A stretch of DNA of 41,635 nt from Ilumatobacteraceae bacterium (GTDB lineage: Bacteria; Actinomycetota; Acidimicrobiia; Acidimicrobiales; Ilumatobacteraceae): contig JAFMMJ010000012.1 of the NCBI GenBank assembly GCA_017859785.1, positions 1-41,635 on the forward strand, given 5' to 3'. This document shows, one piece after another, positions 20,147 through 31,006 of the stretch (positions are counted from its first letter, which is position 1; the number at the start of each line of letters is the position of its first letter). Both the position numbers and the translations under genes were made by a program. A model generated the notes under the pieces. The model saw nothing but the letters and a program-made list of their open reading frames with translations. It ran no database searches and was not told the DNA's origin.

Positions 20147-20737
20147 GTGGTCCCGACACCGATGTTTCCTCTCGGTCTCGCTCTGCTTCCCGGTGCCGTG
20201 CTGCCGCTCCATGTCTTCGAGCCTCGCTATCGGCGCATGATCGGTGACCTTCTGGCGCGCGATGACGACATGGAGTTCGGGGTGGTGTTGATCGAACGTG
20301 GTCGAGAGAGCGGTGGAGGCGAGACGCGCTCGGAGGTCGGTACGTTCGCCCGTGTTCTGGATCTCCGTGTGCTCGAAGACGGTCGATACACCTTGATCAC
20401 GGTGGGCACGGATCGTTTCGAGGTGGTCGGGTGGTTGCCCGACGACCCCTATCCCGTCGCACGAGTGCGCAGGCTCGTCGACGTTCCGCCGAGTATCCCC
20501 GTCGACGGTGAGGCGCTGATCGCGCGCGCGGTCGACCTCGCGAGGCGCGCGGGTCATGAGATTGAGCATCCGGGAGAAACCGCGGTATGCCCAACCTTCG
20601 CGGCCGGAGCCATCGCTCCCATCGCCGAGGTTGATCGTCAGCGGCTGTTGAGATTGGCCGATCCGGGGGAGCGAGCCGTGGCGATCGGTGAGGCGTTGGA
20701 CGACCTCGAGGCGGTGTTGCGCTTCTCACAGGAGTGA
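20147..20737 (+). CDS. LON N-terminal substrate-binding domain protein
   Basis: The 196-residue protein consists of the N-terminal domain of Lon protease without the ATPase and protease parts. The opening MFPLGLALLPGAVLPLHVFE and RYRRMIGDLL are the family hallmark, followed by GTFARVLDLRVLEDGRY. Stand-alone proteins of this kind are common in Actinobacteria, and their role is not settled; binding of peptide or protein substrates is a reasonable idea. The GTG at 20147 follows a leaderless -10. It probably leads the transcript running through the small proteins to trmI. Confidence 0.88.
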   Translation: MVPTPMFPLGLALLPGAVLPLHVFEPRYRRMIGDLLARDDDMEFGVVLIERGRESGGGETRSEVGTFARVLDLRVLEDGRYTLITVGTDRFEVVGWLPDDPYPVARVRRLVDVPPSIPVDGEALIARAVDLARRAGHEIEHPGETAVCPTFAAGAIAPIAEVDRQRLLRLADPGERAVAIGEALDDLEAVLRFSQE

Positions 20738-20788
20738 GCGGGTCGCCCTCAGGGGGCATGTCCTCCCCTGGCTGGTAGGAATATGGGC

Positions 20789-21127
20789 ATGTCAGAGCGC
20801 CGGAACCCGAGCGTGAATGAGGTCGTCGACACGATCATCGCCTACGCGAAGGATCAAACGATCGGCCCGTTGCGTGGAGCGGGTCGATGGGTCCTCTGGG
20901 GTGCGATTGGCGCTGTGCTCCTTGGTTCGGGTGCTCTCCTCGTTCTTCTCGGAGCGCTTCGAGCGATCCAGACGGAATGGAACGCTGTTGGAGACAACTG
21001 GTCGTGGTCGTGGGTGCCATATCTCATCGTGCTCGTCCTCGCGATCGCCCTCCTCGTCGTCACCCTGACGCGCATCAATCGCGACCACCTCGCTCGTACC
21101 GACCGGGAGGACGACCATGGCAGCTGA
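20789..21127 (+). CDS. Small two-helix membrane protein
   Basis: The 112-residue protein starts MSERRNPSVNEVVDTIIAYA, with transmembrane segments at about residues 30-53 and 68-90 and a charged C-terminal tail (TDREDDHGS). It resembles small holin- or stress-type membrane proteins widespread in Actinobacteria, without an assignable function. Two ATGs lie 6 nt apart. The second (20789) was preferred because a TAGGAA hexamer lies at the distance seen for other starts here; the first, at 20783, adds two residues. It overlaps the next gene by 11 nt. Confidence 0.7.
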   Translation: MSERRNPSVNEVVDTIIAYAKDQTIGPLRGAGRWVLWGAIGAVLLGSGALLVLLGALRAIQTEWNAVGDNWSWSWVPYLIVLVLAIALLVVTLTRINRDHLARTDREDDHGS

Positions 21128-21340: not shown

Positions 21341-21553
21341 GTGGCTCTGCCGTCGCCGAGAACACTTGCGAGGACCGCTGTCCGTCGTGGCGTGGTGCGC
21401 GCGGAGCATGGTTGGCGATTTCTTGGGTGGACTGTCGTCATCGGTCGGTTCGTCGGCCGAGCGGTGCGTCGTCGTCCCGAGAAGGTAACGGTGCAGCGAC
21501 TCCGCCGCGGCCAAGGCCTCGACGTTCGGACCTCTCGGAGACGGCCCGCGTGA
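21341..21553 (+). CDS. Small basic hypothetical protein
   Basis: The 70-residue, strongly basic protein (about one quarter Arg/Lys) has a short hydrophobic stretch, FLGWTVVIGRFVGRAV. No family is recognised. Support comes from position: it begins 8 nt after one gene, and its stop overlaps the GTG of the sulfur carrier gene as GTGA, so it fits the tight operon. It may be a membrane-surface protein, but nothing more can be said. Confidence 0.55.
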   Translation: MALPSPRTLARTAVRRGVVRAEHGWRFLGWTVVIGRFVGRAVRRRPEKVTVQRLRRGQGLDVRTSRRRPA

Positions 21554-21744
21554 TCGTTCGCCTGCGCCAACCGAGGCGCGAGGTGGAGATGGCCGGGGGA
21601 AGGGCGGCCTATGCCGTGCTCCACGACCTCGGACTCAGCCGGGAAGGACACCTCATCATCCGCAACGGCACGCTCGTTCCCTCCGACACCATGCTCGAGG
21701 ACGGTGACGTCGTCGAGATCCGACCCGTCATCTCGGGGGGCTGA
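21550..21744 (+). CDS. ttuB: Ubiquitin-fold sulfur carrier, TtuB/ThiS/MoaD-like
   Basis: The 64-residue beta-grasp protein ends in ISGG, the diglycine tail that is adenylated and thiocarboxylated. The body (IVRLRQPRREVEMAGGRAAY, then VLHDLGLSREGHLIIRNGTL) follows the ThiS/TtuB pattern, and the SGG end is like Thermus TtuB. It lies directly before ttuA (no gap), so it should deliver sulfur for tRNA 2-thiouridine formation. An activating E1-like enzyme (TtuC/MoeB type) is not in the window. The GTG start overlaps the preceding stop. In Thermus the carrier also tags proteins, which is notable beside the Pup system. Confidence 0.85.
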   Translation: MIVRLRQPRREVEMAGGRAAYAVLHDLGLSREGHLIIRNGTLVPSDTMLEDGDVVEIRPVISGG

Positions 21745-22728
21745 GTGTCGAAGTGTCGGTCGTGCGGTGAGGCGGCGGTGGTCGACCTCCCGCGTCACAA
21801 CGCCAACTTCTGCGCGACTCATTTGCAGCAGCTCTGCGTTCGTCAGGTCCAACGGGCTATCTCGGACTTCTCGATGTTCGATGATTCGGCTCGGATCCTC
21901 GTGGCGGTGAGTGGCGGTAAGGACTCTCTCGCGCTGTGGGACATGCTCGTCGAACTCGGCTACCGCGCTGACGGCCTCTACATCGGACTCGGAATCGGGG
22001 AGTACAGCGAGGAGAGTCATCGCATCACCTCCGCATTCGCGACCGAGCGGGGGCTCACACTTCACACGGTTGACCTCCGAGACGAGCACGGCTTCGACAT
22101 CCCGACCGCGGCTCGAGCCACACGCCGGGTGCCCTGTTCGGCCTGCGGCCTGTCGAAGCGGCACATTTTCGACCGTGAGACGACACGTCTCGGGTACGAC
22201 GTCCTCGCGACCGGACACAATCTCGACGATGAGGCCGCGGTACTGCTCGGCAACACGATTCGGTGGGATGTCGACTACCTCACCCGGCAGTACCCAGTGC
22301 TCGAGGCCGGACACGGCTTCCCGCGCAAGGTCAAACCGCTCGCGCGGCTCACCGAGCGGGAGATGGCCGCCTGGTGCGTCATACGGGGTATCGACTACGT
22401 CGTCGAGGAATGTCCAATGGCTATCGGCAACCGGCACTCGGGGTACAAAGAGACCTTGAACGAGATGGACGAGCGTTCCCCGGGAACGAAGGCGTCCTTC
22501 TACCTCGGGTTCCTCGACCGCATGGCTCCGCTCATCAGATCCACGCCAGCAAGCCAAGGCGCGCCGGAGGCCTGCCCGTCGTGTGGCGCCCCGTCGTCCA
22601 GCTCGGAGACACCCTGCGCGTTCTGTCGTCTCGAGTCCACAGCGTCCGCCCATGAGCCGGTGCCCGTTCGCATGGTGTTGAATCGGACTGCCCGTCGAGC
22701 CTTCGACGCGCAGTGGGGAGAGGAGTGA
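21745..22728 (+). CDS. ttuA: tRNA 2-thiolation enzyme, TtuA/Ncs6 family
   Basis: The 327-residue adenylating sulfurtransferase acts on tRNA. The PP-loop SGGKDS is at 56-61. Two zinc knuckles are visible: N-terminal C4-C7-C23-H26 and C-terminal C277-C280-C291-C294. The iron-sulfur ligands known from Thermus TtuA match Cys131, Cys134 (PCSACG) and Cys223 (EECP). The ATGHNLDDEA motif (155-164) is also typical. TtuA makes s2U/s2T at position 54 of the T-loop; related Ncs6 proteins act at U34. The neighbour trmI, also a T-loop enzyme, favours position 54. The start is GTG. Confidence 0.9.
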   Translation: MSKCRSCGEAAVVDLPRHNANFCATHLQQLCVRQVQRAISDFSMFDDSARILVAVSGGKDSLALWDMLVELGYRADGLYIGLGIGEYSEESHRITSAFATERGLTLHTVDLRDEHGFDIPTAARATRRVPCSACGLSKRHIFDRETTRLGYDVLATGHNLDDEAAVLLGNTIRWDVDYLTRQYPVLEAGHGFPRKVKPLARLTEREMAAWCVIRGIDYVVEECPMAIGNRHSGYKETLNEMDERSPGTKASFYLGFLDRMAPLIRSTPASQGAPEACPSCGAPSSSSETPCAFCRLESTASAHEPVPVRMVLNRTARRAFDAQWGEE

Positions 22729-22730
22729 CC

Positions 22731-23537
22731 ATGTCGGATCGTGTCTTCGCCATCGGCGACCGCGTTCTGCTACTCGATGTGAAACGACGCCGGTATCTCG
22801 TCGAGTTGCGCGAGGGCGGTGAGTTCCACAGCCACGCGGGCTTCGTTCCTCACGCCGAGATCATCGGGCGCTCTGAGGGAGTCACGGTGGAGAGCACGAA
22901 GGCGGCCGAGTACACGGTGCTGCGGCCCACCCTCGAGGATTTCGTGCTCGAGATGCCGAGAGGTGCACAGGTCATCTACCCGAAGGATCTCGCGCCGATT
23001 CTGATGTTGGCCGACATCGGTCCCGGCATGCGCGTCTTCGAAAGCGGGCTCGGTTCGGGGGCGCTGTCGACGGCGATGCTCCGGGCGGGAGCGGAAATCG
23101 TTGGCTATGAGGTGCGTGAGGACTTCGCCAATCGGGCGAGAACGAACGTCCGCTCATTTCTCGGTGAGGCGGCGCTCGACCGATATCACGTCAACATCGC
23201 GGACTCGTACGCGGATATCGACGCCGAACTCGGGCCGTTCGACCGGATCGTGCTCGATTTACCCGAGCCATGGCAGGTCGTCCCCCACGCGGAGCGGGTG
23301 CTCCGTCCGGGAGGGATACTGCTCGCGTATACGCCTTCGATCATGCAAGCCTCACAGACCCGCGAGGCACTCCGAGGACGTTGGATCGAGAACCGCACGA
23401 TCGAAGTCCTCCACCGCGGTTGGCACGTTGAGGGCCAAGCGGTTCGACCGGATCACCGGATGGTGGCGCACACCGGCTTTCTCACCGTGGCGCGATTCCT
23501 CGGCCGGTCCAACGAGCGCATCGCCCGTGACGGCTGA
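22731..23537 (+). CDS. trmI: tRNA (adenine-58-N1)-methyltransferase
   Basis: This SAM-dependent enzyme methylates A58 in the tRNA T-loop. It has 268 residues. The N-terminal small beta domain begins with FAIGDRVLLLD, and the AdoMet motif is FESGLGSGALS followed by GYEVREDFANRA. The catalytic region is VLDLPEPWQ, and the linker motif PRGAQVIYPKDLAPI is a family hallmark. The ATG at 22731 has GGAGAGGAG just upstream and starts 2 nt after ttuA. In Thermus, m1A58 and s2T54 depend on each other, so the linkage with ttuBA makes sense. Confidence 0.94.
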   Translation: MSDRVFAIGDRVLLLDVKRRRYLVELREGGEFHSHAGFVPHAEIIGRSEGVTVESTKAAEYTVLRPTLEDFVLEMPRGAQVIYPKDLAPILMLADIGPGMRVFESGLGSGALSTAMLRAGAEIVGYEVREDFANRARTNVRSFLGEAALDRYHVNIADSYADIDAELGPFDRIVLDLPEPWQVVPHAERVLRPGGILLAYTPSIMQASQTREALRGRWIENRTIEVLHRGWHVEGQAVRPDHRMVAHTGFLTVARFLGRSNERIARDG

Positions 23538-23551
23538 GCTTCAGTGAGGGA

Positions 23552-23797
23552 TCAGGGCTCGATGAAGATGCACTCGCCGGGGCATTCCTCGGCGGACTCG
23601 ATCACGCCGTCGAGTTGACCCTCGGGGATCTCGGCGAGACCGTCGGCGCCCTGCGGGTTGCCCTTCGCGGTCGCGAAAATCTTGTCGCCTTCCTTCACGT
23701 AGGCGAGGCCGTCGTCGAGGAGGGTGAAGACGTCAGGGGCGATCTCTTCACAGAGTCCATCTCCCGTGCACAGATCCTGATCGATCCAGACCTTCAT
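23552..23797 (-). CDS. Ferredoxin, 3Fe-4S or Asp-ligated 4Fe-4S type
   Basis: The 81-residue ferredoxin has first-cluster ligands C10-T-G-D13-G-L-C16 and a C-terminal ECPGECIFIEP segment with two Cys. The CxxDxxC pattern has Asp where a 4Fe-4S protein usually has Cys, so the cluster may be 3Fe-4S, or 4Fe-4S with an Asp ligand as in Pyrococcus ferredoxin. It could serve a monooxygenase or other redox enzyme. No partner is adjacent. It has a leader with AAGGAG (plus-strand 23808-23813), and is divergent from mpa. Confidence 0.9.
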   Translation of the reverse strand: MKVWIDQDLCTGDGLCEEIAPDVFTLLDDGLAYVKEGDKIFATAKGNPQGADGLAEIPEGQLDGVIESAEECPGECIFIEP

Positions 23798-23907: not shown

Positions 23908-23925
23908 CCGAAATGGAGGTGCGTG

Positions 23926-25596
23926 GTGAATCAAGAACGCGATGACTCGTCCGACGTCGCCCAGAACGGCGCGCCAAGTCCCGAAGCGCAACGTCTCCGG
24001 GTGCTCGAGGATCGACTCCTTGAGGCGAAGGGCCGGCTCGCTGCGGCGACCGCTCAGAACGAGAAACTCTCTTACACGCTGCGTGAGTCGCGCGAGCACA
24101 TCGCCGCTTTGCGTGACGAGGTCGACAAGTTGACCCGCCCGCCGAGCCCGTATGGGGTCGTTGCGTCTCGAAACGATGATGGCACCCTCGACATTCATTC
24201 GATGGGGCGCAAGATGCGCGTCGAGGTTGATCCGACCCTCGAGATGGACGACATCGAGCCTGGCGACGAGGTGTATCTGAACGACTCGTCGGCAGTTATC
24301 GGCCACCGTCGCTCCGATCCAGTTGGTGAGGTCGCGACCCTGCAGCATCTGCTCGAGGACGGCGTTCGCGTCGTCGTGACGGGTCGCGGTGATGAGGAAC
24401 GGGTCTGCGAACTGGCCGGCTCGTTGCGGGGAACGCGGCTCCGTCTCGGCGATCGAGTTCGGATCGATCCCAGGGCGTCGGTCGTCCTTGAAGTCCTTCC
24501 TCGCCCCGAGGTTGACGAACTTCTGTTGGAGGAGATTCCCGACGTCGGCTACGACGACATCGGCGGACTCGGCACGCAGATCGAAGCGATCGCTGATGCG
24601 GTCGAACTTCCGTTCCTTCACCAAGAACTCTTCGCCGAGCACCGCCTCCCAGCGCCTAAGGGCATCTTGTTGTACGGCCCTCCTGGCTGCGGCAAGACCC
24701 TCATCGCGAAGGCGGTTGCGAACAGCCTGGCGCGCAAGGTCGCCGCCCAGATAGGCGAAGGTAAGGGCCGCAGCTACTTCATCAACATCAAAGGTCCCGA
24801 ACTGCTCAACAAGTACGTCGGAGAGACCGAGCGACAAATCCGCCTGATCTTCCAGCGGGCTCGTGAGAAGAGCGAGGAGGGCTGGCCGGTCATCGTGTTT
24901 TTCGATGAGATGGACTCGATGTTCCGCACGCGCGGCACGGGCATCTCGTCGGATATGGAGTCGACGATCGTCCCCCAGCTCCTCGCTGAGATCGACGGCG
25001 TCGAAGGGCTTCGCAACGTGATCGTGATCGGCGCGACCAACCGCGAGGACCTCATCGACCCCGCGATTCTGCGTCCGGGTCGACTCGACGTGAAGATCAA
25101 AATCGAGCGACCCGACGCGGAGGCGGCAGGGGAGATCTTCGCGCGATATCTGACCGACGAGATCCCGATCGCTGAGGGTGTTTCCGTTCCCGATCTCATC
25201 TCGGCGACGGTGGAGGCGATGTACGCCGATATCCCCGAGAACCGGTTCCTCGAGGTGACCTATCAGAACGGCGATCGCGAGGAACTGCACTTCAAGGACT
25301 TCGCCTCCGGAGCGATGATCGAGAACATCGTTCGACGCGCGAAGAAATCCGCGATCAAGCGGGTGATCGCCGGTGGTGAGCGCGGTGTCGCCCTCGAGGA
25401 CCTCCTCGGCTCGATTCGCCAGGAGTTCAAAGAGCACGAGGATCTTCCGAACACCACGAACCCGGACGACTGGGCGAAGATCTCCGGGCGTAAGGGGGAG
25501 CGGATCACATTCATCCGGACGCTCATGAACGACGACGAGCGATCGGGAGCAGGCGGTCGGGCGATCGAGCGGTCGTCGACCGGTCAGTACCTCTAG
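23926..25596 (+). CDS. mpa: Mycobacterial-type proteasomal AAA ATPase (Mpa/ARC)
   Basis: The hexameric unfoldase feeds pupylated proteins into the 20S proteasome. It has 556 residues. The N-terminal coiled coil that binds Pup is at about 20-72, two OB-fold parts follow to about 200, then the AAA module with Walker A GPPGCGKT at 252-258 and Walker B FFDEMDS near 325-331. The arginine-finger region [20 protein letters not shown] is present. The C-terminus ends GQYL, with the penultimate Tyr that docks into the proteasome alpha ring. It leads the operon with dop, 8 nt downstream. Confidence 0.97.
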
Positions 25597-28126: not shown

Positions 28127-28803
28127 GCATGCCGTATTACGTCGCGCCAGAACAGGCGATGAAGGACCGCGCGGATTTCGCGCGCAAGGGCATCGCCCGT
28201 GGCCGCGGGCTGGTAGCGCTCCGGCATTCCGGGGGCGTGGTGATCGTGGCCGAGAACGCCTCACAGTCGTTGCGCAAGGTGAGCGAGATCTACGACAGGA
28301 TCGCATTCGCCGGGGTGGGCAAGTACAACGAGTTCGATCAACTGAGAGTCGCGGGAATCCGTCAGGCGGAACTCACCGGCTATCAGTACTCGCGAGACGA
28401 CGTGGACGCGCGCACGTTGGCGAACGACTACGCGCAACTCCTCGGCAATTCGTTCACCCATGGGATGAAGCCGATGGAGGTTGAGATTCTCGTGGCTGAG
28501 GTGGGCCTAAACGGCGGTGGCGACGACCAGATCTTCCACATCATGTACGACGGCACGGTCGTCGACCATGTCGACGCCTGCGCACTCGGCGGCGACGCCG
28601 ACGCCGTGACCGCCCGACTCACGGAGGGATTCACCGAGGGCCTTGACCTCAGCGCGGCGGTGAATCTCGGTGCATCGTCACTCGGCGGCGAACGGTCGTT
28701 GACAGCCTCTGATCTCGAAGTTGCGACACTCGAGCGCGGTGACGACCGGCGGTGCTTCCGCCGCCTGACCTCCGATGAGGTCGCCAACCTCCTCGGTGCC
28801 TGA
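28123..28803 (+). CDS. prcA: 20S proteasome alpha subunit
   Basis: The alpha subunit forms the outer rings and gate to which Mpa docks. It has 226 residues. It begins MSMPYYVAPEQAMKDRADFA, typical of actinobacterial PrcA, followed by RKGIARGRGLVALRHSGGVV and KVSEIYDRIAFAGVGKYNEF. The frame is open far upstream, but this ATG overlaps the prcB stop (ATGA) and matches the family N-terminus. pxpA follows after one base. Confidence 0.95.
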   Translation: MSMPYYVAPEQAMKDRADFARKGIARGRGLVALRHSGGVVIVAENASQSLRKVSEIYDRIAFAGVGKYNEFDQLRVAGIRQAELTGYQYSRDDVDARTLANDYAQLLGNSFTHGMKPMEVEILVAEVGLNGGGDDQIFHIMYDGTVVDHVDACALGGDADAVTARLTEGFTEGLDLSAAVNLGASSLGGERSLTASDLEVATLERGDDRRCFRRLTSDEVANLLGA

Positions 28804-28804
28804 G

Positions 28805-29563
28805 ATGCCCGCTGTCGATCTCAACGCCGACCTCGGAGAGGGATATGGCGTTTGGTCGCTCGGGGACGACGAGTCGCTGCTGTCGATCGTGACGTCGGCG
28901 AACGTCGCCTGCGGTTTCCACGCCGGCGATCCGAGCACGATACGACGAACTTGTCTGGCGGCGGCCCGCGGCGGGGTGCGCATCGGTGCGCAGGTCTCGT
29001 ATCCGGATCTCCCCGGCTTCGGCCGACGGGCCATGGCGATCCCGCCCGAAGAGTTGAGGGACATTGTGCTCTACCAGCTCGGTGCCCTCGACGCGTTCGC
29101 CCAGGTGGCCGGCACCGAGGTGGCGTACGTCAAGCCGCACGGCGCGCTCTACCACGCCTGCTGGGATGACCGCGTTTCGGCGCGCGCTGTTGTGGAGGCC
29201 GCGATCGAGTACGACCCGTCGCTCGTCGTCCTTGGCCCGTCGGGATCGCAGCTTCTCGCCGAAGCCGAGCGCATTGGGTTGGAACAGGCCGAGGAAGTGT
29301 TCGCCGACCGGTCGTACACACCCGATGGGCATCTCGTGGCGCGATCGCAGCCGGGATCCGTGCTGCACGACGCCGAGACGGTGATCTCTCGAATGATCCG
29401 TCTCCTCGACGAGGGATCTCTTACCGCGGTCGACGGGACGGAGTTGCGACCGGCGGTCCGATCTATTTGCGTGCACTCCGACACTCCGGGGGCGGTGGAG
29501 TTGGCTCGAGGGCTGCGCGGCGCGCTCGAGTCGTCGGGAGTCGGCATCCATTCGTTTTGCTGA
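28805..29563 (+). CDS. pxpA: 5-oxoprolinase subunit A (LamB/YcsF family)
   Basis: With PxpB and PxpC it hydrolyses 5-oxo-L-proline to L-glutamate at the cost of ATP. It has 252 residues, the family length. Hallmarks are VDLNADLGEGYG at the start, SANVACGFHAGDP near 34-46, GAQVSYPDLPGFGRR, VKPHGALYH, and VHSDTPGA near the end. The ATG at 28805 is one base after the prcA stop, so it is almost surely on the proteasome transcript. This placement between prcA and pafA is unusual. Confidence 0.95.
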   Translation: MPAVDLNADLGEGYGVWSLGDDESLLSIVTSANVACGFHAGDPSTIRRTCLAAARGGVRIGAQVSYPDLPGFGRRAMAIPPEELRDIVLYQLGALDAFAQVAGTEVAYVKPHGALYHACWDDRVSARAVVEAAIEYDPSLVVLGPSGSQLLAEAERIGLEQAEEVFADRSYTPDGHLVARSQPGSVLHDAETVISRMIRLLDEGSLTAVDGTELRPAVRSICVHSDTPGAVELARGLRGALESSGVGIHSFC

Positions 29564-29582
29564 CTGGCCTGATCGACAAACC

Positions 29583-30203
29583 ATGGGCGCACTCCTTCCT
29601 TACGGCGACCGAGCGGTGCTCTTCGAGTGCGATGACGAGCATCCCGGTCGTCTCGCCGAGCGGCTCAGGGGTCGTGAGATGTGGCAGGGCGACGGGCCGA
29701 TCGAGGTGGTTCCCGGGGCCCGAACCATCCTCCTGTCTTTCGCTCAGTCAGTGGATTCCATCGACATCCTCGGCGTCCTCGATCGCGCGCGCGAGGGGGT
29801 GGGGGCCGAGGCGGCACGGACGCCCGAGGTCGTTGAGATTCAGGTCGTCTACGACGGCGACGACTTGCCGGCTCTCGCTGAGGAGACCGGGCGAGCAGTG
29901 GAGGAGATCATTGCGAGCCATAGCGCCGCCGCTCACGTGGTGGACTTCTGCGGCTTCGCTCCCGGTTTCGCCTATATGTCTGGGCTCCCTGAATGGATGC
30001 ATGTCGCGCGTCTCGCGACGCCGAGAACTCGGGTGCCAGCCGGCTCCGTGGCCATCGCGGCAGGTTGGAGCGCGGTCTACCCCGGTGAATCGCCGGGTGG
30101 ATGGCGCCTGATTGGCCGCACGGACGCAGTGATGTTCGACCCGGATCGGGCGAAACCAGCACTACTTCCTCCGGGCACCGAGGTCAGGTTCGTGCCCCGA
30201 TGA
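29583..30203 (+). CDS. pxpB: 5-oxoprolinase subunit B (KipI family)
   Basis: The 206-residue protein carries the family motifs YGDRAVLFEC near the N-terminus and FCGFAPGFAYMSGLP near the middle, then TPRTRVPAGSVAIAAGWSAV and YPGESPGGWRLIGRT. KipI of Bacillus inhibits the sporulation kinase KinA, but beside PxpA and PxpC the enzyme role is the right reading. It starts 19 nt after pxpA, and its stop overlaps pxpC as ATGA. Confidence 0.94.
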   Translation: MGALLPYGDRAVLFECDDEHPGRLAERLRGREMWQGDGPIEVVPGARTILLSFAQSVDSIDILGVLDRAREGVGAEAARTPEVVEIQVVYDGDDLPALAEETGRAVEEIIASHSAAAHVVDFCGFAPGFAYMSGLPEWMHVARLATPRTRVPAGSVAIAAGWSAVYPGESPGGWRLIGRTDAVMFDPDRAKPALLPPGTEVRFVPR

Positions 30204-31006
30204 GCCTCGTCGTTGTCTCGCGCGGAGTGGGCACCACCATTCAGGACCGGGGGCGTGCGGGCTTCGCGCACCTCGGTGTCGCGGCCTCCGGCGCTGTCGA
30301 CCCCACGACGGTGCGTCGAATGAACCGTGCGCTCGGAAATCCGGCTGAAGCGGCCGTGTTGGAGACAGCCGGCGGTCTTCGGCTGCGCGCGGAGGCTCCG
30401 ACCACGGTGCTTCGTGACGGCGATATCGGCCCCGTCGCGCTGCTCCCTGGTACGGAGCTCACCGTGAATCCTCGTCCCGGTCGAGTCTGGGGCTACCTCG
30501 CGGTGCGCGGAGGTGTCGAGGCGCGATTCGTCCTCGGCTCGAGGAGCAACGATGTGATGTCTGGCCTTGGCCCCGAGGCCATCGTGGACGGGTGCGTGGT
30601 GCGCGGCGAGGCAAGCGATTCGGGGGCGATCAGCGATGTCACGGTGCCACCGGAGGAGTCGCCGGCCCCGTTGCGAGTGAGGGTCGGACCGCGGGTCGAC
30701 TGGTTTGCAGCCGGCGCGTTGGATCGCCTCACGGAAGTCACCTGGGCGGTGACCGAGACCGGGCGTGTCGGCGTCCGACTCGGAGGCGGGGCGCTCGAGC
30801 GATCGGTTGATCGCGAGTTAGCCAGTGAGGGCCTCGTGCCTGGAGCGATTCAGATTCCCGCCTCCGGTCAGCCGTTGGTGATGGGGCGCGACCATCCGAC
30901 AACCGGCGGGTACCCGGTGATCGCTGTCGTGGATTCGGCGGACCTCGCGTCCCTGATGCAGCGGCCCGTGGGCAGCCAAGTGCGGTTCGCGCTCGCGCCG
31001 ACCTGA
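30200..31006 (+). CDS. pxpC: 5-oxoprolinase subunit C (KipA/biotin-dependent carboxylase-like)
   Basis: The 268-residue protein has the family motifs GVGTTIQDRGRAGFAHLGV and ASGAVD near the start, YLAVRGGVEA in the middle, and EGLVPGAIQIPASGQPLVMG toward the end. The domain also occurs in urea carboxylase and allophanate-linked enzymes, but the pxpAB neighbours settle the role. A stretch of 27 bases separates it from pafA, which has its own -10 hexamer. Confidence 0.94.
   Translation: MSLVVVSRGVGTTIQDRGRAGFAHLGVAASGAVDPTTVRRMNRALGNPAEAAVLETAGGLRLRAEAPTTVLRDGDIGPVALLPGTELTVNPRPGRVWGYLAVRGGVEARFVLGSRSNDVMSGLGPEAIVDGCVVRGEASDSGAISDVTVPPEESPAPLRVRVGPRVDWFAAGALDRLTEVTWAVTETGRVGVRLGGGALERSVDRELASEGLVPGAIQIPASGQPLVMGRDHPTTGGYPVIAVVDSADLASLMQRPVGSQVRFALAPT

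Follow-up and report, generated by a model that had tools for sequence, protein, structure and literature searches.

A conserved ttuB-ttuA-trmI operon with predicted tRNA T-loop modification functions in a presumably mesophilic member of the Ilumatobacteraceae

Gene organization of the ttuB-ttuA-trmI locus

The window, a stretch of 41,635 nucleotides, has its closest named genomes in the Acidimicrobiia, family Ilumatobacteraceae. It carries a plus-strand run of genes that starts with those for a LON substrate-binding-domain protein and a small membrane protein and goes on to ttuB, ttuA and trmI (Table 1). The intergenic gaps are 0 nt (ttuB/ttuA) and 2 nt (ttuA/trmI), and the first-pass annotation of this DNA had both the gaps and the gene coordinates exactly right. 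On the 3' side, trmI is followed by a ferredoxin gene on the opposite strand and then by Pup-proteasome genes, including one that we infer to encode ARC/Mpa because genes for Dop, the proteasome and PafA lie nearby. When compared with the three closest relatives (L082, L083 and L084), ttuB, ttuA and trmI each showed dN/dS values of 0.03-0.10 (0.03-0.06 for ttuB alone), and all three are genuine genes under purifying selection.

Table 1. Features of the ttuB-ttuA-trmI locus and its flanks (window coordinates)
Gene	Position	Strand	Features
LON substrate-binding-domain gene	20147..20737	+	PF02190, 91.9 bits; upstream in related loci too
Small membrane protein gene	20783..21127	+	Weak Holin-X match (PF07332, under cut-off); left flank of the ttuBA site
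ttuB	21550..21744	+	GTG start; 64-aa ubiquitin-like sulfur carrier; free C-terminal diglycine (...RPVISGG)
ttuA	21745..22728	+	GTG start; 327-aa predicted [4Fe-4S] tRNA U54 2-thiolase; two zinc fingers, PP-loop SGGKDS, K138
trmI	22731..23537	+	ATG start; 268 aa; tRNA m1A58 methyltransferase by homology
Ferredoxin gene	23552..23797	-	Fer4_15, 61.5 bits; between trmI and the putative ARC gene; same place in relatives
Putative ARC/Mpa AAA ATPase gene (Pup-proteasome)	23923..25596	+	Position kept in relatives; adjoins trmI with or without ttuBA

The Pup-proteasome cluster also contains the pxpABC 5-oxoprolinase genes (LamB/YcsF, CT_C_D and CT_A_B; window positions 28775-31006), located between the proteasome alpha gene and the PafA gene. 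The same placement was observed in L082, L087-L089, L091-L093, L095 and L133, and the genes are absent there in L107, L114 and L119.

Sequence and structural features of TtuA

The Pfam domains of the ttuA product are PP-loop and TtuA_LIM_N (30.7 bits, cut-off 27). Against proteins of solved structure (phmmer), it scored 271 bits with Thermus TtuA (5gha) and 213 bits with Pyrococcus PH0300, sharing 48% and 40% sequence identity with the Thermus and Pyrococcus TtuA, whereas Methanococcus NcsA and TilS reached 82 and 25 bits. The NCBIfam models of TtuA, NcsA and TtcA returned 228, 107 and 63 bits, TtuA scoring highest of all models and each staying under its curated cut-off; the TtuA cut-off of 450 bits belongs to a narrow, Pyrococcus-based model and corresponds to no defining biochemical feature. 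The protein contains five CXXC/H motifs and two zinc fingers, with zinc ligands C4/C7/C23/H26 and C277/C280/C291/C294 and Fe-S ligands C131/C134/C223. All eleven residues are identical in Thermus and Pyrococcus TtuA, in agreement with the initial description of a TtuA thiolase with its complete set of iron-sulfur and zinc ligands.

The PP-loop S56 G57 G58 K59 D60 S61 (SGGKDS) is invariant, as are the three Fe-S cysteines across 111 aligned proteins, and K138 is retained in 108 of the 111, with arginine in the NcsA row and two TtcA rows. This lysine is equivalent to K137 of Thermus TtuA, which carries TtuB, and is replaced by arginine in eukaryotic Ncs6 (PMC3980101). The AlphaFold model of TtuA has a mean pLDDT of 90.2, and in a ranking of PDB structures against it positions 1-15 were all occupied by TtuA, with NcsA at 16 and TilS at 18.

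The PP-loop and the three-cysteine Fe-S site are common to TtuA, NcsA and TtcA, so that action on U34 (as in NcsA/Ctu1) or C32 (as in TtcA) has to be weighed against action on U54. In a 55-row tree with one NcsA row and two TtcA rows as outgroup, the window protein grouped with Thermus and Pyrococcus TtuA, and NcsA and TtcA fell outside. A phylogenetic check had been proposed in the first pass; the protein was placed beside characterised TtuA, but in AU tests, with few, long-branch outgroup rows, a clade uniting the TtuA of actinobacteria with the single NcsA (p 0.19) or with the two TtcA rows (p 0.30) was not rejected. Viral contigs yielded no further NcsA sequences, and a plasmid collection searched for more TtuA and NcsA gave one useful addition, a TtuA copy on a Thermovirga plasmid. 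Given the single NcsA row and the long branches, we base the assignment not on the tree but on the scores, the residues, the fold and the partner genes.

NcsA/Ctu1 U34 thiolases resemble the window protein in the PP-loop, Fe-S cluster, zinc-finger architecture and use of a ubiquitin-like sulfur donor, but none of the distinguishing NcsA features (an NcsA-type score, a CXXC first finger, arginine at the K138 position) was found in it; its first zinc finger has a histidine (CxxH), as in TtuA and unlike NcsA. Action on C32 is also contradicted by the absence of zinc fingers from the two TtcA rows of the alignment, and action on U34 by the presence in the same genome of MnmA, the usual bacterial enzyme for this position. 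With trmI as the partner gene in addition, a U34 or C32 target appears improbable, and sequence score, ligands, K138, predicted fold and partner genes support the identification of the window protein as a probable TtuA.

Proteins with 31-35% identity from families f28 and f41, along with a second copy from the small same-phylum genome G180, branch separately and were not included as TtuA. The TtuA-like thiolases of f28 and f41 (L176, L177, L180 and L182) have TAHTLED replacing TGHNLDD, and no TtuB or TrmI was detected beside their genes.

Sulfur carrier, methyltransferase and other pathway genes

TtuB showed a ThiS match in Pfam (37.8 bits, cut-off 22.5) and matched SAMP2 (5lda), PF1061 and Thermus TtuB (5ztb/5gha) in the PDB. 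This beta-grasp match and the C-terminal VISGG bear out its earlier designation as a sulfur carrier with a diglycine end. TrmI, with the Pfam domains GCD14 and TrmI-like_N, matched Rv2118c (1i9g, 220 bits), a tRNA (adenine-N1) methyltransferase (2pwy, 148 bits) and TrmI (5c1i/5c0o, 144 bits).

The only strong ThiF-family protein in the host genome is a rhodanese-ThiF fusion (G000:C40; MoeB model 532.7 bits, cut-off 449), which, judging from its domains, would be an E1 uniting the roles split between TtuC and TtuD in Thermus. The genome also encodes three ThiS-family carriers above cut-off, TtuB included, a JAMM protease and MnmA (for U34). Neither TrmFO nor a TrmA-like protein (PF05958) was found in the host genome, which is 98.8% complete, or in a same-genus genome, and control genomes were positive. 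An anticorrelation between TrmA-like proteins and TtuA was considered and rejected: PF05958 is present in 4 of 13 TtuA-containing and 7 of 14 TtuA-lacking Acidimicrobiia, with no clear pattern.

Most of the tRNAs read in the host genome (28 of 30) have a TTCRA T-loop with U54, C56 and A58. The determinants of TtuA in tRNA are C56 and m1A58 (PMC7912444, PMC6418473). By our own reading of the loops, tRNA-Phe(GAA) and tRNA-Val(CAC) have an apparent A54 (ATCGA), and with A54 in place of U54 these two could not be TtuA substrates at this position.

A different arrangement was observed in G180, where a ThiF E1, a GG-ending carrier, TtuA and MnmA are encoded in a row (L178; G180:C13, 6648-9534). TrmFO is encoded elsewhere in this genome, which also has the second, divergent TtuA-like gene (L179).

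Conservation and patchy occurrence of the operon

We compared 65 related loci from named genomes: TtuB is encoded just upstream of TtuA in all 61 with enough upstream sequence, and TrmI just downstream in 64. For 29 loci drawn across the phylum, TtuB was found upstream in 28 and TrmI downstream in 27; the one locus lacking TtuB stops at a contig edge, as does one of the two lacking TrmI. Other classes of the phylum show the ttuB-ttuA-trmI order as well. The contiguous module first noted in the window is thus kept in nearly every related locus, and its conservation over several classes indicates that the linkage of the predicted s2U54 and m1A58 functions is no accident of one contig.

Within the Acidimicrobiia, TtuA is present in 13 of the 27 genomes sampled, and this patchy occurrence suggests that ttuBA is dispensable. 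The 14 TtuA-lacking genomes have trmI and the adjoining genes in their usual places, and no TtuB-like sequence was detected at this site. The left-flank gene, where detected in these relatives, ends approximately 385-800 nt before trmI, compared to 1607 nt in the window, and most of them have a small membrane protein gene upstream of trmI. In this phylum trmI adjoins the ATPase gene of the Pup-proteasome whether ttuBA is present or not, so the variable part is ttuBA. On the TrmI tree, the ttuBA trait shows 8 changes, at least three of them on well-supported branches, a pattern that would fit repeated loss. A patchy trait with this many changes could also be a relic that is kept by linkage and makes little or no modification, which is extremely improbable in view of the low dN/dS values relative to the closest relatives and the invariant Fe-S cysteines.

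The location of the proteasome genes directly downstream, the JAMM protease in the genome and the conjugation of Thermus TtuB to proteins (PMC3980101) suggest another role, in which TtuB would be mainly a protein modifier tagging for the neighbouring Pup-proteasome, with tRNA thiolation secondary. However, the adjacency of trmI and the ATPase gene persists in genomes without ttuBA and is therefore not specific to ttuB, which itself accompanies ttuA and in some lineages is fused to it. We consider a primary role in protein modification unlikely.

Growth temperature of the host

The relatives of the host include Desertimonas and Ilumatobacter, and the record names of relatives (names only) refer to lakes, estuaries, the Caspian, Baikal deep water, a fen and desert soil. 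The G+C content of the host genome is 57.5% for 16S rRNA and 63% for tRNA; 16S G+C in thermophiles is usually above 60%. A literature search for growth temperatures of Ilumatobacter gave nothing usable. The names of the relatives and the 16S G+C content point to a mesophilic host, so that the presumption of mesophily made in the first pass is supported, though not proven.

The IVYWREL value of the window (0.42, nominally 60 C) would suit a moderate thermophile using the operon for heat stability, as in Thermus. However, the same values were obtained for relatives whose names refer to Lake Baikal deep water and to Kiruna, which makes the index uninformative here, and it was rejected as a thermometer. 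As the 16S G+C content and the aquatic and soil names of the relatives also speak against it, a thermophilic host is very unlikely.

Proposed T-loop modification and comparison with known systems

The locus is best explained, with high probability, as an operon for T-loop modification in a mesophile of the Ilumatobacteraceae, with s2U54 accompanied by m1A58 as the predicted product. The reaction, position, product and role are proposals drawn from the observed genes and their homology, the ligands, the predicted fold, the conserved gene order and the partner genes. The original reading of the locus as a T-loop module outside thermophiles is thereby strengthened by the TtuA identity, the separate MnmA for U34 and the conservation of the operon over classes.

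In the proposed pathway, the lone E1 (rhodanese-ThiF protein) would adenylate the C-terminal glycine of TtuB, which would then be converted to a thiocarboxylate, a cysteine desulfurase supplying the sulfur. Using its three-cysteine [4Fe-4S] cluster and ATP site, TtuA would adenylate C2 of U54 and insert the TtuB sulfur, and TrmI would produce m1A58. In Thermus, m1A58 accelerates sulfur transfer by TtuA (PMC6418473, PMC7912444), and for this reason a single operon may keep s2U54 and m1A58 together. Because TrmA and TrmFO were undetected, the predicted product is s2U54, which on sequence grounds is more likely than m5s2U54. Its probable benefit here would be a stiffer tRNA elbow at ordinary temperatures, in bacteria that appear to lack m5U54. 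No tRNA modification measurements from Acidimicrobiia were found in the literature.

The TtuA/TtuB/TtuC/TtuD system of Thermus thermophilus, which produces m5s2U54, agrees with the window in the TtuA ligands, lysine and fold, the diglycine carrier, the E1 and rhodanese functions and the presence of TrmI in the cell. In contrast to Thermus, the window host is presumably mesophilic, lacks detectable TrmFO and TrmA, has the E1 and rhodanese in one protein and a single operon for carrier, thiolase and TrmI, and its thiolation substrate is probably U54. TtuA from Pyrococcus horikoshii (PH0300) has the same ligands and fold, but is from a hyperthermophilic archaeon with methylated U54. A parallel in the product is Sulfolobus acidocaldarius, which has TtuA and TtuB genes, no TrmA, and s2U54 without an identified m5U methylase (PMC7668247, PMC7912444); thiolation of position 54 is known there and predicted here, and S. 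acidocaldarius differs in being a hyperthermophile.

Previously, m5s2U54 was described from several thermophiles "but not from mesophiles" (PMC6313347), and position-54 thiolation as a hallmark of hyperthermophilic archaea (PMC7668247). A search for literature naming TtuA together with actinobacteria, conducted mostly outside subscription journals, revealed only work on an archaeon. The conserved and selected TtuA operon in bacteria from lakes, estuaries and soil suggests that thiolated position 54 has a use beyond heat resistance. The linkage of ttuBA and trmI gives the biochemical coupling of these two marks, s2U54 and m1A58, the form of a genetic unit. Relatives are in culture (Desertimonas and Ilumatobacter) in which tRNA mass spectrometry could address the question directly.

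Carrier-thiolase fusions and carrier C-termini

In 21 of 120 loci, TtuB and TtuA are encoded in one frame through ...SGG-AG...C, which supports the pairing of the two proteins. No ATG, GTG or TTG is present between the GG and the first TtuA cysteine in 19 of them (L020, L030, L032, L033, L142, L184 and L197-L209), and the other two (L022 and L027) have an internal ATG. The fused loci of known kinship are all outside the Acidimicrobiia, with at least four changes on the tree, and one of the fusions comes from a genome consisting of a single contig (G118), making an assembly error unlikely. No prior description of a TtuB-TtuA fusion was found in a search of titles and abstracts mostly outside subscription journals, so an earlier report is possible.

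Because carrier function depends on a free glycine at the C-terminus, the fusion implies proteolytic release of TtuB. A diglycine inside a longer protein is also found in MoaX, the MoaD-MoaE fusion of M. tuberculosis, whose carrier is freed by cleavage after the second glycine, between Gly82 and Ser83 (PMC4326299); MoaX differs in being a molybdopterin synthase, and TtuB of the window is a separate protein. Another MoaD-MoaE fusion is cut by DRJAMM (PMC8832034). JAMM genes are present in all 21 genomes of other classes tested and in 25 of 27 Acidimicrobiia, and by analogy we infer a JAMM protease to be the candidate cutter of the TtuB-TtuA fusions. A broader proposal, for which we see the case as evenly balanced, is that non-thermophilic actinobacterial classes use unmethylated s2U54 with m1A58 as the normal T-loop, replacing ribothymidine, and that several lineages make a carrier-thiolase polyprotein cut by JAMM at the diglycine.

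The TtuB C-termini were compared in 95 related loci. In 30 of them, as in the window, TtuB ends exactly in GG, and in 50 it has one to three extra residues, as in L103 (GGMQ), L106 (GGC) and L013 (GGAL), which would require C-terminal trimming; in other loci it runs in frame into TtuA.
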